Virus record (IMG/VR): IMGVR_UViG_3300009506_000018
Span: 1 to 64,000 of that record
Origin: a virus
Strand: one strand, 5' to 3'
DNA length: 64,000 nt
The translations under genes were made by a program, and so were the position numbers. The notes under the pieces were generated by a model, which was not told where the DNA came from, searched no databases, and saw only the letters and a program-made list of their open reading frames with translations. The stretch's first letter is position 1; each line of letters opens with the position of its first letter. This document shows, in pieces, positions 4,891 through 44,747 of this stretch.

Positions 4891-5343
4891 ATGGGTAAGC
4901 GTTCGACAGTGAAAGGCTACTGGCGTCAGCGCGGTAGCGGAGCGGAATCACGGGCAACTCCCGCCCCGGTTCTGTCTCATCTCGCCGTCACCTTCGACGG
5001 CGCAGCTGCAAACACGACCCTGACGGGCAAGTGGCTCCCGGCAGGTGCCATCATTCTGTCGGTGGACGTCGTATCCGGCCATACCGGCGGCACGACTCCC
5101 GCCGTCGATATCGGCGTCAACACGGCAACCCCGGACCCGGACGGCATCCTCAACGGGGCTGTGTCCACCACCACGGCACGCTACGTGGTCGGCGACGCAC
5201 AGGCTGGCGTTCTCGTCGGCGCGGCGCTGGCGGCAGACGCGGAGATCACGGCAGGCGATGACGGCACCGGCACGGCTGGCACGGGCAACATCACGGCAAT
5301 CATCACGTTCGGATTCAATGACGACGGCGTAGTCAACGACTAA
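4891..5343 (+). CDS. Small beta-rich virion protein
   Basis: A 150-residue protein with a basic N-terminus (about 25 residues), then Thr/Ala/Gly/Asp-rich beta sequence (FDGAAANTTLTGKWLPAGAI, VDIGVNT...) resembling small capsid-surface or head-fibre proteins. There is no Cys and no membrane segment. It lies just after the capsid terminator, in the head-completion block. The precise role is unknown. Confidence 0.55.
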   Translation: MGKRSTVKGYWRQRGSGAESRATPAPVLSHLAVTFDGAAANTTLTGKWLPAGAIILSVDVVSGHTGGTTPAVDIGVNTATPDPDGILNGAVSTTTARYVVGDAQAGVLVGAALAADAEITAGDDGTGTAGTGNITAIITFGFNDDGVVND

Positions 5344-23279: not shown

Positions 23280-26200
23280 ATGGCAACGCCCGCCGGGCCA
23301 TGGACTAAGTACCAACGGCCTCAGAATCCAGACCCTCGCCTGTTCGAGGCGGTCCGCCATGCTGAAAGCGGTGCTGATCCAAACGCGGTATCGCCAGCTG
23401 GAGCGATCGGCACGATGCAGACCATGCCGGAGACGCTGCGCGATCCGGGCTATGGTGTCGAGCCATTGCCGGAGCACCAGTGGGACGACTCGACGGCGCT
23501 GCAGAAAAAGGGCGAGGAATACTTGTCGGCCATGTACCGCAAGTACGGCGGGGATATCGAGGCGGCGCTGATCGCTTATAACGCTGGCCCGGGCAATGCC
23601 GACAAGTGGCTGAAGTCCAACCGGGATTACTCGGTGCTGCCGAAGCGGCAGGAAACCGAGCCTTACGTGCAAAAAGTCATGGCCCGGTACGAAGCGCCAC
23701 AGGAGGCCGGTCCATGGTCCCAGCATCAACCCGAGGGACCATGGTCGAAATACCAGCAGCAACCTCCGCCGCAGGAGAGCCAGTTCAACCCGGAAGGTGC
23801 CATCAATCCTGAGACGGGTCGGCCATGGACTCAGGAAGAGGTGGACGCCACGGCTCTGGACCAGAAAGACTTCCTTGCGAAATACCCGGGATCGCGGGTG
23901 CAGCAGGAGATGGACCAGAGATTTGCGGCTTCGCAGCAAGGCCTGACTCAGTCAGGAGAAGCGGCTGGCCCATGGGCAAAATATCAGCCATCCGGGGAAG
24001 CCCAGCCAGAAGACGAGAGCTGGCTGGGGCAGTTCACCAAAACACTGGGGGCGCGGATATTCAGTGGAACGCTGGGCGTTTCTAGCATGGCATGGGATAC
24101 GCCCGAGGCCGCTCATCGCTACCTTCGCGGAGCCTACAGCAAGCTCAAGGATTCTGGTGTCCCTGACTGGCTGAATCCATTCGGGGCCCCGACCCTGATC
24201 GCCGACAAGATTGCCAACGGCCATGACTTCGGCAAGTTCCATGCTGCCGGGGCCAGCGACATGGCCGACAGGATCGACCAGTCGGTGAAGTTCCTCGACG
24301 AAACCCTCCCGGCCTTCAAGGATGCAGTGGCGGGAACCGAGGAAGCGCAGCGGGCATGGGATCGATTCCTCGAAAGCGATGGTGATTTCGAGATCCTGTG
24401 GAACGCCGCTAAGGATCCAGAAGTCCTCGGTGCCGCGATTGGACAGGGGCTGCCCACACTGCTGGCCGCATATCTCGCCAATAGGACCGGGCATGGCCTG
24501 CCGTTCATGGGCTGGATGGAGGCCATGGACTCCGCCCAGAACGCCCAGCAGTTCGAGGAGATGACCGGCGAACAGATCTCCGATGGCGAGTTCGCAGCCG
24601 CTACCGCTTCAGCCGGGGCGATCAACGCCGTGCTGGAGAAGACGGGTCTGGACGCCATCCTCGGCAAGCTGCCGGGCGGCAAGTCTCTCGTGGGCCGGTT
24701 CCTGCTGGCGCTGGGCACCGAGGGCGGGACGGAATTCATTCAGGAGGTGGTGCAGAACCTCAGTGCCCTGATCTACGACGAAGAGGAGCGCGACCAGCTC
24801 AACGAGGCCATCGACAGTGGCGACTGGGAGGCTGCGGCAAAAATCGTCACCCGTGGCGGCTTCCCAGCGTTTCTGGGAGGCGCTGGGCTGGGTGCCGCTG
24901 GTGGTGGGCTGGGTTACTGGGCAGATCGCATCAGAGCGGCTGAGACGGGCTCTGAGCCGCCTCCACGGGATGACATCATCGAGAGAGCGGACGAGGTCAG
25001 CGTCAGCGAGGCCGAGGAAGCCGGGATCGAGGTCAGGGACGTCAGCAATGACACCCTCCAAAGGGTGGCTACCGGCGACCCCCTGACTGACGAGGAGATG
25101 TTCAACCTGCAGCGAGCCGGGCTGGCTCGGGTATTGAATGCCGGGGAGGGGCGGATGGCGCTCACCCCGGAGGGCAAGAGGCAGCTGGCCGGAGAAGGGC
25201 GGTCCCGGGCGCAGGCACTCGACCAGAGGATCCGGCAGTCAAGGACGCCGACGCTCAGAGATCTTACCGATGCCGAGCTGCGCCAGCGGGTCCGCACCAT
25301 CGGTGACATCGAGGGCCTGATCAAGCGGGCCCCGCCAGAAATGGATCTGGCGAAGAAAGTCACCGGCAAGGTGTTCTACGCAGACCCTGAGGCTACCGGC
25401 CTGCCCCGGCTGATGAAGAACCGCTCCGAGGGAATGCTGTCGGTGACGATCTCGCCGCAGAACCCGCTGCAGCTGCCAGCCGAAGCCTTCAACATGCTGG
25501 AGCCAGAGGAGATCGAGTTCGCCCGGCGCGAAGGTTATGACGCCATTATCAGCGATAACGGCGAGGCGATGGCGCTGGATCCGGGGATCCTGCGCTATGT
25601 GCGTGGGTCCGGCGACGACGGGGTGGACAAGTACGGCTTCACCAAAGAGGCGAAGAACGATTTCGAGGCGCTGGCAGATGCGCAGCGCGGCAAGCCCGAG
25701 ATGGCGATGCTGCGGGCCGCACGGGTGGTAGGGGGCGGCGTCATGCAGGTCATGACCGAACATCTCGGCGACCTGACTCATCGTATGTCTGAGCGCACCG
25801 CCAACGAGAACCCGGATCAGGGTCTGGAGTTCGTGTGGCCGAAGGTCAGGCGCGGAATCAGCTTCCTGACGAATCCCTATGGCTTCAAGCGAGAGTTCGA
25901 GGAGAACCTCAGGAGCAACTTCCGGCACTGGCAGGAAGAGCCTCGATACAGGCCGAGGTGGTTCAACAAGCTCGTCGAAACTACCGGCAAAGAGCCGACC
26001 TTCGAGGAATACCGGAAGCTGGTTGACCGGGCCCTCAAGGAATACGCGGACGAGCATCGCCAGCTGCCTGTCTACAACGAGGCCCAGAAGCTGGCCCGTG
26101 ATATCGCGGTGGCACTCGGTGAGCAGCGGTTCGATCTGGTCACCTCGAAGCTGGAACGCCTGCGCGAAATGATGGTCAACGACGAGGGCAAACCAGATAT

Positions 26201-29200
26201 CGAGAAGTGGGTTAGTTATGCCCGGCGGCATCCATCAATAACCTCCCCTTCCCTGTCGCGCACGCGACGTCGCCGCCGGGCACCTTCTGGAGAGTGGTAT
26301 CAGGATCGATACCCGACTCTAGGCGAGAGGCCGGTCGGAGCGCCGCCGGGGATCAAGGACATCCGGGCAGTGGGGCGCTTCGTCACGAAACTCCGCAACC
26401 GGGTGCGCCGTGGCGAGGGCAAGGATGGCGGCGGTCGCAATCTGATCCCGCCTGATGCGTGGACGTGGTACGAGGATGCCGGATCTCTCATCCGCAAGCT
26501 CGTCAAAGGCGACATGCAGGATATGGAGAAGATGGTGCGCCTGCTGGCGCTCATGTCTCCGAACACTTCCGTTGAAACCAACGTCACGAAGTGGATCACC
26601 GGGATCTACAGGGCCTACAAGGAAGGTCGTCTCAGTGATCTGACTCAGATCCCCGGGGCCCTGATGGGGAACGAAGATCTGATCAGCGCGCTCGAAGCCG
26701 ACGAGCTGACGATCAATACCCGGGGCGTTGGCCCGAAGCTGCTGAACTTCTACCGCAACCTGTGGGATGCGACGTTCGAGCAGGACCGCTACCCGGATGC
26801 GGTCACCATCGATCTGTGGATAGCGCGAGAGTTCGGGTTCACCAACCCAAAGAAGGTCATCGACACGCAGTACGAATTCGCCCGGAAAGTTCTGGTCGAT
26901 GCCACCGCTGACTACAACGAAGAGTACGGCACCAGCTGGAAGCCGCGACAGTTTCAGGCAGCCCTGTGGGTATTGGCCCGGGGTGGGAAGCGCGGGTCGT
27001 TCGCCGAGCTGATTCGCGGCTCGTCTGCCAATGCCGCTTTCGAGACGATCCCGTCAGAGAGCTTCAACGAAGGACGTGTGCTTGCCCGGTTGACCGACGA
27101 AGAGCGCGTCAAGTACACCGAGGAAATGCTCGATGTGCTCGGCACCGAGGACGGGCGCAACGAACTGCTCGATGCGATGGGTCTGCCGCTGTACGTCACG
27201 CAGCAGATGCGTGGGGCCTACATGGGCACTACCGCACCCGGGGCGCTCATGGAAGCGCCGCTGCTGAAGGCTGCCGAAGGCTATGACCGCGAGACGGCAG
27301 ACACGATCGCGATGGCGCTGCAGTACATCTACAAGCAGGACTCGGTAATCTGGTTCCGGCCCGTCAAGAGCGAGGCCAAAGAGCCGCCCTCTCCGAATGA
27401 GGAAGGCTACGATCAGGCGTTCGCCGTCAGATTCGACAAGGCCCTGACCAGCGAGGACATCGGCCTGTTGGCGGCGATGCTGGAACAGTACTTCCCGGGA
27501 CAGGGGTTCACGGTCACCGAGCCGGACGAGATCACCCTGATCAATCTGGACGGCATTGACCCGAAAACTGGGGAGGCTCCGGCCACGCCCAGAAAGAAGG
27601 CCGCGAACAACGCGAAATGGCTGGACGGGATCCGCTCGTGGCTCTCGGAAATTTCAACACCTTTCGGTATAATTGGAGCCGATACTTCGCCAATGACGGT
27701 GGAGTCGTCTGGATACAGGAGAACCATTCATGACTGGGAAGCTGACGAAAAAGGATCTCGACTACTTGATGAAATACAAGCCCGACGCCCGGGCCTTGAA
27801 TCGCGGCTTGACGATTGGCGTGGGCGGGCCGAACAAGTCACGAAGCGGTGGGTCGGTAGCGCAAAGACGGCATCAAGGCCAGCTTCCGCACCAGTACCCG
27901 TGGATCGACTCGACCACGGAGGACGAGCGCAAGTAGAAGTCTATGGTCGGTTCGGTTCCTTGCGAAAGGAACCGACTACCGATCGCCTCAAGATCTACAA
28001 CCTGCGGCCAGCGATCGAGAATCCGCAGGGCACCACCCAGAAGCTCCTAGACGATTACGGATTCGAGGTCGAAGTATTCAGCTTCGACCCCGAGCGGTTC
28101 CGCCTGCCCGAGCTGAAGAAGCGCGGCTATGAGCAGGGTGTCGTCTGGATCTATGACCCCGAGGTCAAGCGGGGTTCATTCAATGATGCCGAGTACACCC
28201 GGGCATGGCGCGTCTCGCACGAGATCGCCCACGCGATCACCGAGCAGCTCATGGAGGAAAGGTACGGGCCGAGCTTTCGCTACGGCAGGCTGGGCCGCAT
28301 CGCCTTGCTGCCACGCGGCAAGCCACCGAGGCAGACTCTGGTGGAGCAGCGCCCGCTGACGCTGAAGGAAGCGCAGCGTGCGGTGGAATGGGAAGACCTC
28401 GCCTTCAGGGTGCAGCGCATGCTGCTGGAGCAGGTCGGTATCAGCATCAACGAAGAGCAGTTCACTCAGGAGTACAACACCAACCTGTCGGATGCGATGT
28501 ATCGCAGCCTGACTGGTGAATTTGGAGATCCCGGTGAGTACGGGTTCATGCCAAATGCCGCCCGTCGGGTGCCCGTCAGGGACGTCCTCAGGGCGCTGGA
28601 GAAGACAGAGGAGCAGCTGGCGAAGGTAGCCGGTAGGAAACCCACCGAGGGTATCGATCTCGATTCATGGGAGCGCATCCCAGAGTCAGAGCTGCGCAGG
28701 GTCATGGACCAGCGCCGAGCAGACAACCAGTCCCCGACCACAGGCGAGAGCCTCGATGACATGCGTATCAGCGTCAACGAGGACGGCACTCTGCGCCTGA
28801 AGCAGCCGAGGCGGATGAGCCGCAAGATCAAGGTTTCGACGCCCGAGTACGGCAAGAACGTCGAGGCCATGGTCAAGGAGTGGATGGAGGGCACCGAGGC
28901 CAACCCGTTCGGTGCGCCAGAGCGCATCATCGAGTGGAAGGCAGCCGCCCAGATCCGCCCCGCCGACAAGGATACGGTGAGCATCGAATCCATTCGCGCC
29001 TTCGAGATGCACAAGGGCGATGGCGGCATGGCGCTGCGCCGAATTGTGGAGCTGGCCGACAAACATGGGGTGACGTTGCAGCTCAGCCCCGTTCCCTTTG
29101 GCGAGGGCGGGCTGACTCGCAAGCAATTGGTGGACTGGTACAAGCGGAATGGTTTCCGCCTGCGACCTGAGGCCCCGTTCGTTTACGAGCGCAAGCCCAG

Positions 29201-32200
29201 AAAGGCCACGCGCTTCAGCAAGAAGAGGACCAACGAGGGCAAGGGGCTGGGCAAGGCGGGCGTGCAGAACGCTGTTCGACAGGTCTACCGGCGTATGAAT
29301 TCAGCGCCCCGGGTCGTTGTCGTCGATACCGTTGAAGACCTGCCCCACGAGGTCTACCTGAAGCTGCTGGAAGAGCACCAGCGGGATCCGAAGAAGAACG
29401 CCCTCGGCAGGACACAGGGGCTGTATGACATCCATGGCGCGTTCGATACCGTTTACCTCATCGGTGCCAACATCAACACCAACGAGGAAGCGATCGACGT
29501 CCTACTGCATGAGATCGTTGGTCACTACGGGACACAGGGTGTCCTGTCCGTTCAGCAGTGGGAACGGGTCATGGACCGTATCTACAACACCTTCCCAGAT
29601 CTGGTGAAGGACGCCGCCGAGCGTAATGACCTGAACATGGCAGACCTCGCAGAGCGACGCATCGCATCGGAAGAGGTCATTGCCTACTACACCGGGCAGG
29701 CCCTGCATCGGAAATCGATCCCGCAGAAGATGAAAATGATCATCGAGGATCTGGTCGAGATGTTCCGCGTCTGGCTGAACCGGGCACTCGGCAAGGGCCA
29801 CGGGATCACGAAGCGGCAGATCCGTGGAATCATCGCGGAGGGATGGAACTTCGTTCACCGCCCCGGAGGTTACAAGCATCAGGCGGTCAGGCTGCACAAG
29901 AACCACCGCTACTCGATGTACTCGCCGTATCTTTACAGCGCCCTGCACGACTGGCTCGGCTCCGTTCCAGAGATCAAGTCTGGCGGGCGGACGAAGGCCC
30001 AGTGGGAACAGGAGATTGCTGCGGCAGTGAAGAAGGGCCTGATCAAGCAGGAAGAGCTTGACTGGTCAGAGCTGGAAATACTCCTAGAAAACCCGACCAT
30101 CAACGATATCTATCGGCACTGGAGCGGACAGCGTGATGACAAAATCGACGAGGTTTTCCATCTCTATCCCGACAAGGATGTCGAGGCGGCGTACCGTCGC
30201 AAGGATGAGATTGATATCGAACGCCGGGAGATCCTCGACGAAAAACTTCCCCACACTATTTGGCCCGGACGGACTGATATGTATCACCGCAAGTCAATCA
30301 TCAAAGCGATGGTTGACGGCACGGTCGAGATCAGCCGGGCCGGAATCGAAACCTACGACCAGAAGTACAGCTGGCAAGACTATACGCAGGGACTGAACGA
30401 CACCGACGCCGCCTACAATTCCGCGAAGCGGCTGGTCAAGCGCCTGCGCGAGATGGAGGAGGAATACGAAGACGTCCGCGACATGATCCAGCGGTATGGT
30501 GCCCGGCCAGCTAACAAGATTCCTGTTGCCGTGGTGCAGAACTGGGTGGCTGAGAACGGGGTCAAGATCGACGTCACCGGGCCCACCTCGAACGTCGATT
30601 GGGATGACGCCGCGACCTTCGATGCGAATTACCCGGACAACGAGGACCACCCAGAGTATTCGGATCTCGACGAGTTCATCGAGGAGAAGGCCTCAGAAGA
30701 GCTGGACGAACTGTTCAGCGGCGACCTGCTCGCGAAGATGGAGGACAGCTCGTGGCGCGGTATCGCCGAGGCCATGTTCGACAACGAGATGGAGCTTGAG
30801 GAGGGCGAAGACTATGAAGAGGCCCTGCTCGAATATGCCTCCCACAACGAGCATCTGATCGACGAGGACTATACCGAGAACGAAATCAAGAGCCAGATGC
30901 GGGTTGATGAATGGGAGACTGAATACAAGGAAGGGCTGATCGCGGAATACAACTGGGACTTCGAGAATGTCGAGTTCAGGGTGCAGGGCAATCGGCATAA
31001 CGACGAGTTCGATCTGTACATCGACGGGAGCGAATACGCCTCCAGCATAGCTGGCGATGATATTGACTATTACATTCGCGAGTGGGGGCAGGAGCAGGCC
31101 AACCAGCCCGGCACAAGGTGGTCGCAATACACCCTGCCCGGCGGCACTGACTATGAAGAAACCCTGCTGCGATGGGACCGCAAGGAAAACCTGTTTACCG
31201 CCAGCGCCCACTGGGACGATATCAGCAACATCATCGTCCACCTGCGGCATGATATCCGCGAAACACCTGATGGCGAGAGGGTGTTCTTTATCGACGAGAT
31301 CCAGTCCGACTGGCATCAGGAGCTGCGCGATATGGGGCGCAGGGATCCGAAGCTGGCGCAGCGCCTGAAAGAAGAGATCGTCGAGGTTCATCAGGCGTAC
31401 AACAAGAACATCAGACCGCAAGGCGAGAAGGCGATCCTCGACGCGCTTCAGACGATGAGCGTCAAGGACATTCTCGACTTCATCATCTACGGCGAGACTC
31501 ACGAGCAGTGGGATAACAATCCGATTGATGAGTTCGTCGTGTCAAAGCCATCGGCCTTCAATTACCGCAAGCAGTGGCTGGAGCAGGCGGTTGGCAAGAA
31601 CCCCAGAAACCAGTTCAAGGAGTTGAGCGGGCTCGACAGCAAGCACTCGGGGATGCTCGGCGTGGTCAGCGACAAGATGCTGGACATGCTGGGGACGTTC
31701 GCCAATGCCGATCTTCTCGCCCGGCTCACAGATACCCAGCTGGCTCCGGCGGTAGGCAAGTTCGATGCGGCTACCGGAGCGATTATCGCCAACGCCCTGA
31801 TGGGCAAGTTCCCCTACATCAAGGAGGGGTCGAACGGGCGCAAGATGATCGCTTACCCGAAGGTCAACATCGACGAGTCCGGTCCTGACCACAGCTATGT
31901 CTGGCACAACAACGACCCCGCTCCAGACTGGCGCAAGGGCGAATTCAAGGACGCGGTCATTACGCCGCAGGACTTGCAGCAGATCTTCGAGCCGGGTCGC
32001 GCTCAGGCCATCAAGGATGCGCTGATCAAGACCATGCTGCGGGAGCTGAAGATCGCAGATGAAACCTACGACCCGAGCCATCCTGAGTTCGACCAGCAGA
32101 ACAGGCTGGCGACCGGCGCGATGGCAGAGGCGCTGTACAGGTATCTGGACAAGGTCAGCAGCACCGGGCAGGGGCCATTGTTCGATATGGCCTATGGCGC

Positions 32201-35200
32201 AGACAAGCTGCCTGCCAGCAAGCTCGCGGAAGAATTTACCGAACGCGGTCATGAGTTCAGGCTCAGCTCGCTGGTCACCGACTTGAAGAGCTGGCGCAGC
32301 AACTTCATTGACGGGATCCAGCTGGAACTGCAGGAGCGCGAGGATAAGATCCAGCGTGCAGAGAGCGGCATGGATCCAGCTCCGTTCGAAAAGTCATACC
32401 ACTTGCTGGCATTGAAGTGGGCCATGGCGGAGGCGACCCGCCGTGGCATCAAGAAGGTCGCTATCGCCAACGGCGAAGTGCATGGGTTCCGCTGGTCCAG
32501 CGGCAAGCTGTACGACTACGTCGAGGTGATGGCGTCTTCGACAGTCGAGGGTTTGCAGCTGTCCAACAACCGGCAGGGCTTCAGCAACCTGCCAGCAGAA
32601 CCAATGCCGCAGAACACCGACTTCAGGGATACCAGCATCGCGAGGAAGTACCAGAAGGCACAGCAGGAAGGATACGAAGGGGGCCTGTTCGAGTGGGTCA
32701 ACGAGAACGTGGACAGAATCTACTGGATCACCACGTATGAAAATGGCGAGGCTATTACGAGGTTCGCCGCATCCCGTGAAGAACTGCCCCAGTGGCTCGG
32801 GCCGATGGTGGCCCAGAAGGTGATCGAGGACGAAGAGCTGGAGCGGTCGCGTACCGGCAATGATTCGACCTTCGTCGCCGTCGATGCGATCGAGGTGGCC
32901 GGGTACCGTCAGGCGACGGCGGGCGGCTACTCGTCGAAGCAGATGACTGGCAGCCGGGCGATATACAACACCATCCAGCCCAACGTGTTCACCAACAAGC
33001 TGTTGAAGAAGTACGGCGCGAAGGTGGTGTGGGGCCCGATCAAGGGCAAGCCTGATCTTTCTGAGGGAACGATTCCGTATTTCGACAGGCCGGTGAAAGA
33101 TGTCGAGAAGGATATCCGCAAGAACTACCGCGTTGTCGAAGATCGCCTGACCGAGGAAGAGCTTAACGACTACATGACCAACCTGTACGGGAAGAAGGTC
33201 ATGGCCCCGGAGGACGTGGATTACGGCAAGTACCGCATTCCGCTGCACGCCGTTGGTCCGGCACATCAGGATGACGCCGTTCACCGCTCGGTGATCTGGA
33301 GAGAAATCACCGAGAAGGACGAGAATGGCGAGCTTGTCGGCAGCGGCAGGTTCAAGGAGCAGGAAGTAAACGATTACTACCTGATCTCCACCGAGCAGGA
33401 ATACAACGACGAACTGGAGAAGATCAGAAAGACCCCGGTCTATGCCCTGCAAAAGCACAAGATCTTCGCCACACACGAAGGCGATAAGGCCATGTGGGCG
33501 TGGGAGCTTGACCCGGCCAACGGTTACGGTGCCAGACGCTGGCTGATGGACAAGCGGGGCAGGACTTACAACTTCGAGCGCAGGGATATCGAGCGCCAGC
33601 TGGAGCGCATGGTCAGGACCGAGGTCGAGGAGTCCGCAAGGGCATTCGGCGCATGGACCATAGAGATCACCCCGAAGCTGAGCGAGCAGCTGCGCACGAA
33701 GGGCATGCCGCTGTTCTCCCGCGCCCCTCCCGCCGAGCAGGCCGAGGGCATGAAGGAGCTGGACAGCAAGGTCGCCGGGGAAGGGCTTACCAGCCTGCAG
33801 AGATTCCAGAATTTCATATTCAAAGTGCTGGGGGTCGAGAACAAGAAGGCTCACATCGAGCAGGCGTTCATCGACCAGTTCGCCGGAATCCGCCATGCCA
33901 TCCGCGCTTACTATGGAGACGTGGGGCTGCCGCCCGAACTGGATCCCTACAAGCACGCGCACCTGACGACATCAACGGATTCGCAGATCTACATCGCCCT
34001 CATGGAAGGGACGCTGGAGTGGCGTGACGGTGCCACCCAGATCAAGGAAGGCAGTAGCGGCCTGCTGAAGATTCTCGAACCAGTCGGCAAGCACATCGAC
34101 GAGTGGGGCAAGTTCATGGTGGCCCGCCGGGCGAAGCGCCTGTACCTCGAAGGCATCAAGGAAGGCTCCCCGGTATTCTTCAACCTGCGCCAGCACTTCG
34201 AGCGGACCCGGGCCGAGAACAGGCGTCCGCGCACGATCGAGGCCATGCGCGAGGCGGCGTGGCAGGACATCCTTTCCGGCGAGCTGGGCACTGAGATCCA
34301 CGACCAGATCAAGAAGTCAGGCCGGGAACAGCTGCTGAGCCCAAAGGCGATCGAGGCTGGCATGTGGCTGGGCGAACAGAATCCGATGTTCGAGACGGTG
34401 GCGGATCGATACGCCCAGTTCATGAGCGAGATGCTGGACTGGGCGCAGACGGCTGGTGTCATCAATCCCGAGACTCGGCCCCTGTGGGAGAACGCGGACT
34501 ACATCCCGTTCTATCGCCTCAGGGACAACCAGCTGGGGGCTGGTTTCAGCGAGCAGTCCGGCACGGTGCCGCCCACCCTGACAGGTACCTCCGCCATGGC
34601 CCGGCAGTTCCTTACCCGGGGGCTGGCGAATCAGCGATCGCCGATCCGTAAGCTGCGCGGCGGCACGAGCATGCTCGGCAATCCGCTGGAAAATATCCTG
34701 ATCAACCTGAACATGCTGATGCAGACCACCATGCGTAACAACGCGGCGGTGCTCACCATCGATTCACTCAATGGTTCCGGCATGGTCACGAAGGCGCAGG
34801 GCTACGAGTTCCTCGAAGAGAAGACGATCGCCGAGGGCGACCTGAAGCGCAGGCTGCGGGCGGTCGGCATTGATACCGAAGACATGGATCAGGCTGCTCT
34901 CGCGGCACTGAAGAAGATGTGGGTGGTGGATACGCCGAAGGATCCGAACATCATCACCATCCTGAGGAACGGCAAGAAAGAATACTGGCACGTCCATGAC
35001 GAGCTGCTGTTCCGTTCGCTGACGGCAATCAACCAGCGCCACTTCCAGAGTTTCTTCGGGTCCATGGCGATGGCCCCGTTCCGATGGACGAAGCGCCTGC
35101 TGACCACGATGATCACGCTGGACCCTGCATTCATGGGTGCCAACTGGATGCGAGACGGGCCGATGGCGTTCGTCAACAGCCGGTACGCTAAGATGCTGCG

Positions 35201-36914
35201 ACCCGATCGCTCACTGCAGGGCATCGGCGAGGCGCTGTTCCTGTCGAAAGAAATGAAATCGATGATGGCTGCGGGCGGCGCTTTCTACTCCGGCTACATC
35301 AATTCCGGCGATCCGGCAGCCATCAGCAAGGCGATGAAACGCGCCATCAGGCGCAGCGGCGTTCGCGGCAAGATCCTGAACACACCGTTCCGGCTGGCGC
35401 ATGCCTACAACGACGTCGCTGCCGCCATGGAGAATTCGAACCGCATCGCCTATGGCTACAAGCCAGCTCTCGATACCACTGGCTCGGTCATCGAGGCGGT
35501 GTTCGAATCGAAAGACCTGATGAACTTCGCGAAGCACGGCGACCTGCCGATCGTTTCGTTCTTCATCCAGACCGTGCCGTTCCTCAATGCTCGCCTGCAG
35601 GGCCTGTATCGCTACGGCCAGCGGCAGATGGGCGAGGGTGTGAAGGCTGCCGGGGTGACCCTGTTGAAGGCCATGATCATTACCATGGCGACGCTCGCGC
35701 TCTACTGGTACAACCGTGACGACGAGCGATACAAGCGGCTGACTCAGGAGGACAAGGATCTCTACTGGCACTTCTGGATCAACGATATGCACTATCGTCA
35801 GCCGAAGCCGTTCGAGGTCGGAGCCCTGTACGGAACCATTCCAGAGCGCATGTGGGAATGGATCGAGTCCGATGCTGACGATGCCACGAAGGTCGCCATG
35901 GACAGGCTGGGCTGGATCATCGGGGAGATGTTCAACTTCGACCTCAGGCAGATCCAGCTGGTGAATCCTCTGGTGGAGGCGGCACGTAACTACGACAGCT
36001 TCTTCAAGGGCCCGATCGTGCCCTATTACCTTGAGAAAGTGGATCCGCGCTATCAGTACACGGAGACGACCAGCCCGACTGCCCGGGAGATCTCTGAGAT
36101 CATGCCGTACGACTGGCCGATGCTGCCGGACTTCATCGAATCTCCGATCATGATCGACCACATCCTGCGCGGGTATTTCGGCACACTGGGCAGCTATACC
36201 CTGCTGACCATAGACACCATGCTGCGATCCTCGGGCAAGTACCCGTCAGCGCCGAAGATGAGGGCGGACCAGCTGCCCGTCATGAAGCGATTCTGGCGCG
36301 GCTACGAGCCGCCAGTACGGTATGAGAAGGACAGCACCGGGCGCACCGTGATCGTTCTTCCTGAGGCCACCGAGGGCGCGACGTTCCCGCGCAGGACCGC
36401 ATGGGAGTCGATGCTGTATGACTTCCGACGGGCGGCAGTGCAGGTCGAGGAGACGATGCGTGACATCGAAGAGGGCGAGCGCGTGCCGGATACTCAGGAG
36501 GAAGGCTATCTGGCCCGGCGTGCCCGCTACTTCAAGGGGCTGACCAACGAGCAGGTACTCGACGCGGTCGAGGACGTGAAGGAAGCCTCGGCTGAAATCA
36601 GGGAGATCCGTAAAGAGATCGACGAGATCATGCGGGCCCCGTTGCGGCCAGAAGAAAAGCTCCGCCAGATGGAGCAGAAGTATCGCGAGATCGAGCAGGC
36701 GGCGCTGGACTGGTATGTCAACCGCCCGGGATCCGGGTTCAAGCAGCAAGACAAGGGCGTGAAGCCGGAGGAGCTGCCGCCGCTGATCATGATGGAAGAA
36801 GACTGGAAGCGCCGCAAAAGCATGACCAGTACCGAAGTCATCAGCTGGTTGCAGAAAGATTACCCGGTCACCGCCGAGCTGGTGGCTGACATGCGGGCAG
36901 GAGGGATGAAGTGA
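23280..36914 (+). CDS. Giant polyvalent virion protein (4,544 residues)
   Basis: It begins with a lytic transglycosylase domain (about 18-120; HAESG with the catalytic Glu29, GTMQTMP, YNAGPGN), suited to opening a hole in peptidoglycan during DNA entry. Four copies of GPW(S/T/A)xxQ surround it (6, 144, 153, 230). Later parts, in order: a possible ART-PolyVal-like stretch (about 700-780), a helical domain (about 1060-1430), a zinc-peptidase motif HEIAH (H1647), a GNAT-like stretch (about 1895-1960), a second motif HEIVGH (H2077), an LPD-type region with DEIQSDWHQ (about 2672) and EKSYHLLALKWA (about 3031), and an LPD38-like helical C-terminal third with a hydrophobic segment near 4131. Large phage polyvalent proteins of this kind are thought to be ejected into the host to act on early defences. 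A separate small gene is overprinted near residues 1484-1552. Confidence 0.8.
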   Translation: MATPAGPWTKYQRPQNPDPRLFEAVRHAESGADPNAVSPAGAIGTMQTMPETLRDPGYGVEPLPEHQWDDSTALQKKGEEYLSAMYRKYGGDIEAALIAYNAGPGNADKWLKSNRDYSVLPKRQETEPYVQKVMARYEAPQEAGPWSQHQPEGPWSKYQQQPPPQESQFNPEGAINPETGRPWTQEEVDATALDQKDFLAKYPGSRVQQEMDQRFAASQQGLTQSGEAAGPWAKYQPSGEAQPEDESWLGQFTKTLGARIFSGTLGVSSMAWDTPEAAHRYLRGAYSKLKDSGVPDWLNPFGAPTLIADKIANGHDFGKFHAAGASDMADRIDQSVKFLDETLPAFKDAVAGTEEAQRAWDRFLESDGDFEILWNAAKDPEVLGAAIGQGLPTLLAAYLANRTGHGLPFMGWMEAMDSAQNAQQFEEMTGEQISDGEFAAATASAGAINAVLEKTGLDAILGKLPGGKSLVGRFLLALGTEGGTEFIQEVVQNLSALIYDEEERDQLNEAIDSGDWEAAAKIVTRGGFPAFLGGAGLGAAGGGLGYWADRIRAAETGSEPPPRDDIIERADEVSVSEAEEAGIEVRDVSNDTLQRVATGDPLTDEEMFNLQRAGLARVLNAGEGRMALTPEGKRQLAGEGRSRAQALDQRIRQSRTPTLRDLTDAELRQRVRTIGDIEGLIKRAPPEMDLAKKVTGKVFYADPEATGLPRLMKNRSEGMLSVTISPQNPLQLPAEAFNMLEPEEIEFARREGYDAIISDNGEAMALDPGILRYVRGSGDDGVDKYGFTKEAKNDFEALADAQRGKPEMAMLRAARVVGGGVMQVMTEHLGDLTHRMSERTANENPDQGLEFVWPKVRRGISFLTNPYGFKREFEENLRSNFRHWQEEPRYRPRWFNKLVETTGKEPTFEEYRKLVDRALKEYADEHRQLPVYNEAQKLARDIAVALGEQRFDLVTSKLERLREMMVNDEGKPDIEKWVSYARRHPSITSPSLSRTRRRRRAPSGEWYQDRYPTLGERPVGAPPGIKDIRAVGRFVTKLRNRVRRGEGKDGGGRNLIPPDAWTWYEDAGSLIRKLVKGDMQDMEKMVRLLALMSPNTSVETNVTKWITGIYRAYKEGRLSDLTQIPGALMGNEDLISALEADELTINTRGVGPKLLNFYRNLWDATFEQDRYPDAVTIDLWIAREFGFTNPKKVIDTQYEFARKVLVDATADYNEEYGTSWKPRQFQAALWVLARGGKRGSFAELIRGSSANAAFETIPSESFNEGRVLARLTDEERVKYTEEMLDVLGTEDGRNELLDAMGLPLYVTQQMRGAYMGTTAPGALMEAPLLKAAEGYDRETADTIAMALQYIYKQDSVIWFRPVKSEAKEPPSPNEEGYDQAFAVRFDKALTSEDIGLLAAMLEQYFPGQGFTVTEPDEITLINLDGIDPKTGEAPATPRKKAANNAKWLDGIRSWLSEISTPFGIIGADTSPMTVESSGYRRTIHDWEADEKGSRLLDEIQARRPGLESRLDDWRGRAEQVTKRWVGSAKTASRPASAPVPVDRLDHGGRAQVEVYGRFGSLRKEPTTDRLKIYNLRPAIENPQGTTQKLLDDYGFEVEVFSFDPERFRLPELKKRGYEQGVVWIYDPEVKRGSFNDAEYTRAWRVSHEIAHAITEQLMEERYGPSFRYGRLGRIALLPRGKPPRQTLVEQRPLTLKEAQRAVEWEDLAFRVQRMLLEQVGISINEEQFTQEYNTNLSDAMYRSLTGEFGDPGEYGFMPNAARRVPVRDVLRALEKTEEQLAKVAGRKPTEGIDLDSWERIPESELRRVMDQRRADNQSPTTGESLDDMRISVNEDGTLRLKQPRRMSRKIKVSTPEYGKNVEAMVKEWMEGTEANPFGAPERIIEWKAAAQIRPADKDTVSIESIRAFEMHKGDGGMALRRIVELADKHGVTLQLSPVPFGEGGLTRKQLVDWYKRNGFRLRPEAPFVYERKPRKATRFSKKRTNEGKGLGKAGVQNAVRQVYRRMNSAPRVVVVDTVEDLPHEVYLKLLEEHQRDPKKNALGRTQGLYDIHGAFDTVYLIGANINTNEEAIDVLLHEIVGHYGTQGVLSVQQWERVMDRIYNTFPDLVKDAAERNDLNMADLAERRIASEEVIAYYTGQALHRKSIPQKMKMIIEDLVEMFRVWLNRALGKGHGITKRQIRGIIAEGWNFVHRPGGYKHQAVRLHKNHRYSMYSPYLYSALHDWLGSVPEIKSGGRTKAQWEQEIAAAVKKGLIKQEELDWSELEILLENPTINDIYRHWSGQRDDKIDEVFHLYPDKDVEAAYRRKDEIDIERREILDEKLPHTIWPGRTDMYHRKSIIKAMVDGTVEISRAGIETYDQKYSWQDYTQGLNDTDAAYNSAKRLVKRLREMEEEYEDVRDMIQRYGARPANKIPVAVVQNWVAENGVKIDVTGPTSNVDWDDAATFDANYPDNEDHPEYSDLDEFIEEKASEELDELFSGDLLAKMEDSSWRGIAEAMFDNEMELEEGEDYEEALLEYASHNEHLIDEDYTENEIKSQMRVDEWETEYKEGLIAEYNWDFENVEFRVQGNRHNDEFDLYIDGSEYASSIAGDDIDYYIREWGQEQANQPGTRWSQYTLPGGTDYEETLLRWDRKENLFTASAHWDDISNIIVHLRHDIRETPDGERVFFIDEIQSDWHQELRDMGRRDPKLAQRLKEEIVEVHQAYNKNIRPQGEKAILDALQTMSVKDILDFIIYGETHEQWDNNPIDEFVVSKPSAFNYRKQWLEQAVGKNPRNQFKELSGLDSKHSGMLGVVSDKMLDMLGTFANADLLARLTDTQLAPAVGKFDAATGAIIANALMGKFPYIKEGSNGRKMIAYPKVNIDESGPDHSYVWHNNDPAPDWRKGEFKDAVITPQDLQQIFEPGRAQAIKDALIKTMLRELKIADETYDPSHPEFDQQNRLATGAMAEALYRYLDKVSSTGQGPLFDMAYGADKLPASKLAEEFTERGHEFRLSSLVTDLKSWRSNFIDGIQLELQEREDKIQRAESGMDPAPFEKSYHLLALKWAMAEATRRGIKKVAIANGEVHGFRWSSGKLYDYVEVMASSTVEGLQLSNNRQGFSNLPAEPMPQNTDFRDTSIARKYQKAQQEGYEGGLFEWVNENVDRIYWITTYENGEAITRFAASREELPQWLGPMVAQKVIEDEELERSRTGNDSTFVAVDAIEVAGYRQATAGGYSSKQMTGSRAIYNTIQPNVFTNKLLKKYGAKVVWGPIKGKPDLSEGTIPYFDRPVKDVEKDIRKNYRVVEDRLTEEELNDYMTNLYGKKVMAPEDVDYGKYRIPLHAVGPAHQDDAVHRSVIWREITEKDENGELVGSGRFKEQEVNDYYLISTEQEYNDELEKIRKTPVYALQKHKIFATHEGDKAMWAWELDPANGYGARRWLMDKRGRTYNFERRDIERQLERMVRTEVEESARAFGAWTIEITPKLSEQLRTKGMPLFSRAPPAEQAEGMKELDSKVAGEGLTSLQRFQNFIFKVLGVENKKAHIEQAFIDQFAGIRHAIRAYYGDVGLPPELDPYKHAHLTTSTDSQIYIALMEGTLEWRDGATQIKEGSSGLLKILEPVGKHIDEWGKFMVARRAKRLYLEGIKEGSPVFFNLRQHFERTRAENRRPRTIEAMREAAWQDILSGELGTEIHDQIKKSGREQLLSPKAIEAGMWLGEQNPMFETVADRYAQFMSEMLDWAQTAGVINPETRPLWENADYIPFYRLRDNQLGAGFSEQSGTVPPTLTGTSAMARQFLTRGLANQRSPIRKLRGGTSMLGNPLENILINLNMLMQTTMRNNAAVLTIDSLNGSGMVTKAQGYEFLEEKTIAEGDLKRRLRAVGIDTEDMDQAALAALKKMWVVDTPKDPNIITILRNGKKEYWHVHDELLFRSLTAINQRHFQSFFGSMAMAPFRWTKRLLTTMITLDPAFMGANWMRDGPMAFVNSRYAKMLRPDRSLQGIGEALFLSKEMKSMMAAGGAFYSGYINSGDPAAISKAMKRAIRRSGVRGKILNTPFRLAHAYNDVAAAMENSNRIAYGYKPALDTTGSVIEAVFESKDLMNFAKHGDLPIVSFFIQTVPFLNARLQGLYRYGQRQMGEGVKAAGVTLLKAMIITMATLALYWYNRDDERYKRLTQEDKDLYWHFWINDMHYRQPKPFEVGALYGTIPERMWEWIESDADDATKVAMDRLGWIIGEMFNFDLRQIQLVNPLVEAARNYDSFFKGPIVPYYLEKVDPRYQYTETTSPTAREISEIMPYDWPMLPDFIESPIMIDHILRGYFGTLGSYTLLTIDTMLRSSGKYPSAPKMRADQLPVMKRFWRGYEPPVRYEKDSTGRTVIVLPEATEGATFPRRTAWESMLYDFRRAAVQVEETMRDIEEGERVPDTQEEGYLARRARYFKGLTNEQVLDAVEDVKEASAEIREIRKEIDEIMRAPLRPEEKLRQMEQKYREIEQAALDWYVNRPGSGFKQQDKGVKPEELPPLIMMEEDWKRRKSMTSTEVISWLQKDYPVTAELVADMRAGGMK
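27730..27936 (+). CDS. Small basic protein overprinted in another frame inside the giant gene
   Basis: A 68-residue frame in +1 relative to the host gene. AGGAGAACC lies at 27717-27725, 4 nt before its ATG, the same extended ribosome-binding signature used by the early and replication genes of this phage. Third-position GC is about 76% in this frame against about 48% in the giant frame over the same bases, the reverse of what is seen on both sides. A TATAAT at 27668-27673 could be a -10 box, though no good -35 is visible. The product is Lys/Arg-rich (KLTKKDLDYLMKYKP). No family is recognised. It looks like a small gene cassette captured in frame by the giant gene. Confidence 0.6.
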   Translation: MTGKLTKKDLDYLMKYKPDARALNRGLTIGVGGPNKSRSGGSVAQRRHQGQLPHQYPWIDSTTEDERK

Positions 36915-44348: not shown

Positions 44349-44747
44349 ATGGCTTACGGAAAAGTGTGGGACACCATGTTCGATGGTTCCCTCGTGATGG
44401 CTGGCTGGGAGGGGGTCGTCACGTTCATGGTGATGATCGTGCTGGCGGACAAGGACGGCTTCGTTGACATGATGCCCGTTGCCATCAGCAACCGAACTAC
44501 CATTCCGCTCAAGGTGATTGAGACAGGGATCGCCCAGCTGGAGGCAGAGGATCCGCACAGCAGGGATGCAGACCACAACGGTCGTCGCATAGAACGGCTG
44601 GACGAGCACCGGGAGTGGGGCTGGCGCATTCTCAACTACGAGAAGTATCGCAACGCCCGGGACGACGCCGCCCTGAAGGCGCACTGGCGCGAGCAGTACA
44701 AGAAGCGCAAGGCGAAGCAGCAGAGAGTGAAGCGGAAGGCGTCATGA
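44349..44747 (+). CDS. Replication-associated hypothetical protein
   Basis: A 132-residue protein beginning MAYGKVWDTMFDGSL, with ACTAGGAGAACCGC before the ATG. The N-terminal part (about 1-60) looks like the small winged-helix-like proteins phages encode before their replication genes (GW.VFVMMI..AD..G.V). It continues with 'LEAEDPHSRD.D..GRRIERLDEHREWGWRILNYEKYR' (about 60-100) and an Arg/Lys-rich tail. Its place between iterons and helicase suggests origin recognition or helicase loading. The family name is uncertain. Confidence 0.6.
   Translation: MAYGKVWDTMFDGSLVMAGWEGVVTFMVMIVLADKDGFVDMMPVAISNRTTIPLKVIETGIAQLEAEDPHSRDADHNGRRIERLDEHREWGWRILNYEKYRNARDDAALKAHWREQYKKRKAKQQRVKRKAS

Follow-up and report, generated by a model that had tools for sequence, protein, structure and literature searches.

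A small gene of 68 codons is nested in frame +1 within the giant gene of this phage, and comparison with related phages indicates that it is a real overlapping gene. The protein family that it encodes is new, and the genetic arrangement belongs to a known class. Three properties of overlapping genes were observed: the second frame is conserved in relatives, it is selected beyond what the first frame imposes, and the first frame is functional as well. The DNA analysed, here called the window, comprises positions 1 to 64,000 (64,000 nucleotides) of the IMG/VR record IMGVR_UViG_3300009506_000018. The full phage record (G000) is 72,059 bp long and has a 144-bp direct terminal repeat at positions 1-144 and 71916-72059, by which it is probably a complete genome. 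The main features, in window coordinates, are as follows.

23280-36914, + strand: giant gene, 4,544 residues (from the ORF list)
Giant residues 8-116: SLT transglycosylase domain (Pfam match above cut-off)
26463-26987: DUF7178, giant residues 1062-1236 (Pfam match above cut-off)
27717-27725, + strand: ribosome-binding site AGGAGAACC with AGGAG core, 4 nt upstream of the small ATG
27730-27936, + strand: small overlapping gene, ATG start, 68 codons plus TAG, frame +1 of the giant gene
27793-27819, + strand: central conserved stretch ALNRGLTIG of the small protein (IFSNGFVLG and IYSRGFVIG in relatives), z of +1-frame conservation up to 8.4
27883-27909, + strand: C-terminal motif LPHQYPWID of the small protein, z = 25, with variation at third positions
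Giant residues ~1569-1760: HExxH domain (HExxH and conservation of the domain in relatives)
28218-28232, + strand: HEIAH at giant residues 1647-1651, the HExxH motif of the putative zincin-like domain (both H and the E invariant in 14 of 14)
Giant residues 4148-4334: LPD38 (Pfam match above cut-off)

The giant gene product combines several unrelated domains, a peptidoglycan hydrolase and an LPD domain among them, as is the criterion for phage polyvalent proteins. SLT, DUF7178, and LPD38 together represent the make-up of polyvalent proteins, which some phages inject with their DNA, and HExxH is the motif named for the metallopeptidases of such proteins (PMC5512222). On sequence comparison, about 1,300 contiguous giant residues around DUF7178 and the HExxH domain form an exchangeable module. 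Giant residues ~640-1966 (window 25200-29180), which include both domains, were undetectable in relatives that still match residues 392-636 and later regions. A first set of relatives, defined by matches to the capsid protein or the giant C terminus, had no detectable module and was silent on an empty site. In mycobacteriophages, cyanophages, and the Tunturiibacter phage Tunturi_3, DUF7178 apparently also exists as a small gene of its own (weak tblastn matches); these free-standing modules were uninformative for the small-gene locus. A DUF7178 relative with 38% identity is located at positions 5001-5285 of the phage contig L131, where no RLPHQYPW motif is present within 8.5 kb.

The preliminary description had listed the 68-codon frame with AGGAGAACC 4 nt ahead of its ATG, which was borne out by the sequence and the ORF list. 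AGGAGAACC is made from the giant Arg-Arg codons AGG AGA, and its duplex with the anti-Shine-Dalgarno (SD) sequence has an energy of -7.4 kcal/mol, with only 4-5% of background positions being equally strong. Four copies of AGGAGAACC are present in the window. Two others of these precede ATGs, at 44349 and 46263, and for two other genes the designation as the ribosome site of early and replication genes is fair, but one copy (25900) lies inside the giant gene. The third-position GC contents given previously, about 76% for the small and 48% for the giant frame, agree with the values measured over the overlap (0.78 and 0.45, respectively), and the minimum of the giant gene is found in the 300-nt interval at 27660 (0.46; mean 0.78, sd 0.064). 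The small frame stays open in 38% of the synonymous recodings that preserve the giant protein. The openness of the small ORF alone is unremarkable, and its significance comes from the comparison with relatives.

A search of IMG/VR records with the domain located just downstream of the overlap led to more distant phages, giving a locus set of 14 that includes this window and 13 further phages, with GC contents of 42-65%. L127 is cut by the contig end, L119 equals L118 over the region and was not counted, and L129 was too short to judge. Two scans of bacterial genome contigs revealed no relative. The close relative G001 (IMGVR_UViG_3300027917_000042, 71.7 kb) has kept both the giant gene and the small ORF, the latter with 85% amino acid identity and with start, stop, and AGGAGAACC all unchanged. 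A small ORF in frame +1 is present at the matching position in all 13 further phages, its length being 64-82 residues in the 12 complete copies, and the small ORFs of the relatives all end in a (G)RLPHQYP[W/Y][I/L]D-type motif, with variants such as QPHRYPWLD, LPHQYPYLD, LPHQFPWID, and LPTQYPWIN in place of the LPHQYPWID found here. The stops in relatives that might have spoken against the gene were not found, as the ORF, its stop, and the C-terminal motif are retained in all 12 complete copies. In several relatives, the small ATG is formed by giant H/N-D-W codons and the SD-like sequence by giant Gly or Arg codons. An SD-like sequence precedes the small ATG in most phages of the locus set, being of the GGAG(G) type in many relatives; it is weak or absent in L122, L123, and L128 and clearly above the recoding null only in this phage, G001, and L120.

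To quantify the conservation of the small frame, the giant protein of each of ten representatives was given 300 synonymous recodings, drawn from the codon usage of its genome. Relative to this null, z for the +1-frame conservation peaked at 25 over the C-terminal motif and at 8.4 around small codons 22-30, compared with a mean of 0.5 (sd 0.98, maximum 3.7) in 420 windows outside the overlap. At the motif, the giant gene uses CCA, TCA, or CCG followed by ATA or GTA in 13 of the 14 phages, yet ATA makes up only 1-17% of the Ile codons. In four independent close pairs, substitutions that are silent in the giant frame and change the small protein occurred at 39 of 222 sites in the overlap (0.175 per site) versus 575 of 1142 in the flanks (0.503; Fisher p=1.5e-20), and giant-changing substitutions were not reduced in the overlap. 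Between this phage and G001, the share of synonymous changes at giant codons 1457-1516 was 0.058, the minimum among 452 windows covering the 13.6 kb of the gene (mean 0.417, sd 0.107). A recombination tract was rejected as the cause of the low divergence, which the four independent pairs show with identical boundaries. The z of 25 at the motif and the deficit of silent changes argue that the small gene is translated and under purifying selection. Thus, as far as patterns of substitution can show it, the small +1 frame is a conserved coding frame in which the central stretch and RLPHQYP[W/Y][I/L]D are selected independently of the giant protein. The overprinting claimed at the outset was in this way corroborated, the ORF, the stop, and the C-terminal motif being kept in relatives and the frame being under selection, and the suggested synonymous-site analysis of both frames placed small-frame selection above the giant-frame recoding and giant-frame selection above the reverse null.

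The same locus had been read as a promoter-plus-gene cassette captured without breaking the larger frame, by which the giant protein gained about 100 accidental residues (about 1457-1560). Morons, i.e., promoter-gene-terminator insertions in phage genomes, would be the model for such an event, and the locus resembles them in being a short stretch of odd composition with a ribosome-binding site, a possible -10 element, and a hairpin. Three features have to be considered here.

27668-27673, + strand: TATAAT, possible -10 element; the + strand of the window has one other TATAAT
27729-27854, + strand: conserved giant segment HDWEADEKG...RRPGLESRLDDW..., residues 1484-1525, aligned in 12 other phages
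27952-27975, + strand: hairpin TCGGTTCC-ttgcgaaa-GGAACCGA, perfect 8-bp stem and 8-nt loop, directly past the small stop

The giant frame runs on through the overlap in the 12 other phages with a full locus, and its own segment there, which covers the small gene for the first two thirds of its length, follows the pattern NDW....G..Y...I...GRPDL or HDW....G....I..RRPGL. When the small frame was recoded synonymously as a reverse null, the conservation of the giant frame had an overall z of 14; by window, z was about 3-7 over small codons 1-45 and hardly above the null over codons 46-56. By these comparisons, both frames are old here, the giant segment taking the 5′ two thirds and the small motif the 3′ third. 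The accidental residues are consequently not accidental over the first two thirds of the overlap, where the segment is homologous in relatives. No empty site was seen among the relatives, none of which keeps both flanks without residues about 1457-1560, and neither the fetched loci nor isolated phages contained the small gene in free-standing form, so that both relationships predicted for a cassette failed to appear. The locus thus differs from a moron in being no insertion.

The composition of the locus leads to the same view. The dip in third-position GC, the TATAAT, the ribosome-binding site, the ORF, and the hairpin all lie within one stretch, as a captured cassette would have them, but the direction of the shift depends on the genome. 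Third-position GC of the giant gene falls from 0.76 outside to 0.45 in the overlap and from 0.85 to 0.65 in GC-rich genomes, and it goes upward in AT-rich ones (0.34 to 0.46 and 0.35 to 0.43), with L128 as the exception (0.38 to 0.33). In the small frame, the giant wobble positions come second in each codon, and judged from the composition, the dip is the mark that the small frame leaves on them, values of ~0.45-0.65 being approached from either side. The opposite shifts in GC-rich and AT-rich genomes therefore argue for dual coding and against an inserted foreign segment. Upstream of the ATG (27648-27729), the small frame does not account for the dip, which may there be a trace of initiation or promoter signals in this phage and G001. 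At the locus, TATAAT was found in these two phages only, and a scan for sigma-70-type sites called no promoter at 27668-27673 and no -35 element; a family-wide TATAAT promoter was therefore rejected, the element being confined to two sister phages and lacking a -35. The description of an early-type gene within a late gene loses its promoter half on the same grounds. Taken together, the recent capture of a moron-like cassette with an unbroken giant frame is extremely unlikely.

A cis-acting DNA or RNA element, such as a regulatory RNA or a packaging or recombination signal, could in principle impose conservation without any coding, and the stable hairpin right after the small stop and a weaker peak of +2-frame conservation at the same position are what one would cite for it. 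The stem of the hairpin is unchanged in G001, and the folding of 27930-27985 gave a z of about -5 in both phages (mononucleotide shuffles). The hairpin has no U-run and hence differs from the usual intrinsic terminators. On the + strand, folding of the entire stretch 27640-27980 was not unusual (z -1.1 to -2.6, mononucleotide shuffles), and no Rfam match above the gathering score was obtained. Within the motif, the entropy in the small frame averages 0.94 at third positions, 0.30 at first, and 0.37 at second positions, with synonymous swaps of Leu, Pro, His, Gln, Tyr, and Asp codons. Owing to this third-position periodicity, a DNA or RNA signal is not expected as the cause. Moreover, the giant-silent rate is 0.045 in the last sixth of the small ORF and 0.54 within 30 nt past the stop, and on this substitution record the constraint on the small frame ends at the small stop codon. 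We therefore regard a noncoding element as highly improbable, and the conserved stretch is further considered as coding sequence.

The small protein would be produced by internal initiation at the small ATG, within the giant H/N-D-W codons, from the Shine-Dalgarno sequence, and the small and giant proteins would then be made together from the giant mRNA. Internal initiation appears to be the simplest route, given a Shine-Dalgarno sequence plus an ATG and a silent change reduced already in the first third of the ORF. Alternatively, the +1 sequence might be read by programmed +1 frameshifting, yielding a shortened giant protein that ends in RLPHQYPWID. Small codons 1-20 are unconserved across the whole family, so that family-wide +1 conservation starts only near small codon 20, and the SD sites of some relatives are poor, both of which would suit a frameshift. 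Nevertheless, giant-silent changes are lowered in the first third of the small ORF (0.22, 16 per 73 sites, versus 0.50 in the flanks), with 0 of 18 between this phage and G001, and an AGGAG is located 8 nt ahead of the ATG here, with GGAG(G)-type sites in many relatives. Frameshifting is accordingly improbable in our view.

AlphaFold2 predicted no confident fold for the small protein (mean pLDDT 59.6), which is thus predicted to be without a stable fold and to carry a short conserved C-terminal motif of the partner-binding kind. Nothing convincing was found for it in isolated phages by tblastn (E<=1 with this copy, E<=10 with that of L135) or in Pfam, PHROGs, PADLOC-DB, and PDB sequences. A tblastn search of plasmids with the giant segment gave weak matches in Rhodococcus and Massilia, which fell mostly between genes or else into a ParB-type gene that is unrelated, and these were discarded as unconvincing. 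For the giant protein, the model delimits two further regions around the overlap.

27402-27716, + strand: predicted ferredoxin-like domain, giant residues 1375-1479 (AlphaFold2 with 14 sequences, pLDDT 76-84 over most of it)
27816-27899, + strand: linker, giant residues 1513-1540 (model segment 139-166, pLDDT <50)

For residues 1375-1479, Foldseek and VIA-align returned common ferredoxin-like arrangements only, with a best VIA-align Z of 7.7. Residues 1513-1540, which the small gene overlies with its conserved 3′ part, are likely a flexible or disordered linker according to the model. The HExxH motif is positioned on a predicted helix, with the invariant residues E329/E331 on a later helix; the domain is without a Pfam, PDB-sequence, or fold match, the HExxH part being barely covered by the Foldseek and VIA-align comparisons.

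The small gene is present in every record that contains the HExxH domain and the preceding sequence, 13 being recognized by profile search (including G047, the region of which is identical to that of G046) and L127 by eye, and it is absent from seven relatives whose giant genes lack the HExxH module. Because the small gene always accompanies the adjacent HExxH domain and is absent where the giants lack the module, a function in trans on or with the HExxH part of the giant virion protein can be suggested tentatively, although we consider it rather doubtful; the small protein might serve as, e.g., an inhibitor, maturation cofactor, or packaging chaperone, binding through its C-terminal motif. 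HExxH domains of polyvalent proteins have been proposed to process the giant chain or to act after injection (PMC5512222). The small gene lies inside the module, and physical linkage alone could explain the co-occurrence. The capsid-protein type of this phage was found in five related records and was not seen in ten, two of them 57.7 and 62.3 kb long, and although most of the records are fragments, the HExxH module has likely moved between capsid lineages. That the HExxH domain and the nested peptide form a self-contained enzyme-plus-regulator module, with the regulator encoded within the gene of the enzyme and the two hence inseparable on exchange between phages, is unlikely.

A real small protein unrelated to the giant one, i.e., a peptide for host takeover or regulation whose origin at this site was accidental, is nearly an even prospect, and such an accessory role is at least as likely as control or assistance of the HExxH domain. 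Proteins born from overlaps in viruses tend to disorder (PMC8227390), and no sequence feature links the small protein to the HExxH domain; against this stands the occurrence of the small gene only with the HExxH module, whether or not the capsid protein of this phage is recognizable, for which linkage alone would suffice. Overall, we hold the explanation by a genuine nested gene, presumably expressed by internal initiation, to be quite probable, the role in trans beside the HExxH domain being its weaker part.

Overprinted viral genes are exemplified by E within D of phiX174 and Rz1 within Rz of lambda. Like these, the small gene is a complete nested ORF on the same strand with both frames selected and a short product predicted to be mostly disordered. 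Unlike phiX174 E and lambda Rz1, it resides in a polyvalent virion-protein gene that measures 13.6 kb and belongs to a tailed phage, its protein family has no named relative, and at the C-terminal motif the small frame is more constrained than the host frame. Overprinted viral genes have been reviewed, and their products are often disordered (PMC8227390). The giant protein resembles the zincin-metallopeptidase polyvalent proteins (PMC5512222) in being giant and multidomain with a transglycosylase, LPD38, DUF7178, and an invariant HExxH, and in a module content that differs among related phages, but unlike them it carries an overlapping gene beside the HExxH domain; the term "overlapping" is absent from the main text of that report.

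The protein family is uncatalogued and would probably escape standard annotation, in which long overlaps are generally shunned. Here, dual coding is backed quantitatively across genomes of 42-65% GC, and giant polyvalent genes, known as domain mixers, would thus be able to hold a second protein in another frame. The locus offers a natural case of shared constraint, in which the 5′ two thirds are governed by the giant frame and the 3′ third, over a likely flexible linker, by the small one, and the conserved C-terminal motif provides a concrete handle for a partner search.

Low synonymous divergence between this phage and G001 was also noted at window positions 26448-26655, 33990-34240, and 34632-34840 (0.20-0.23 versus 0.42). 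These stretches of the giant gene possibly represent further overlapping signals, weaker than that at the small gene.
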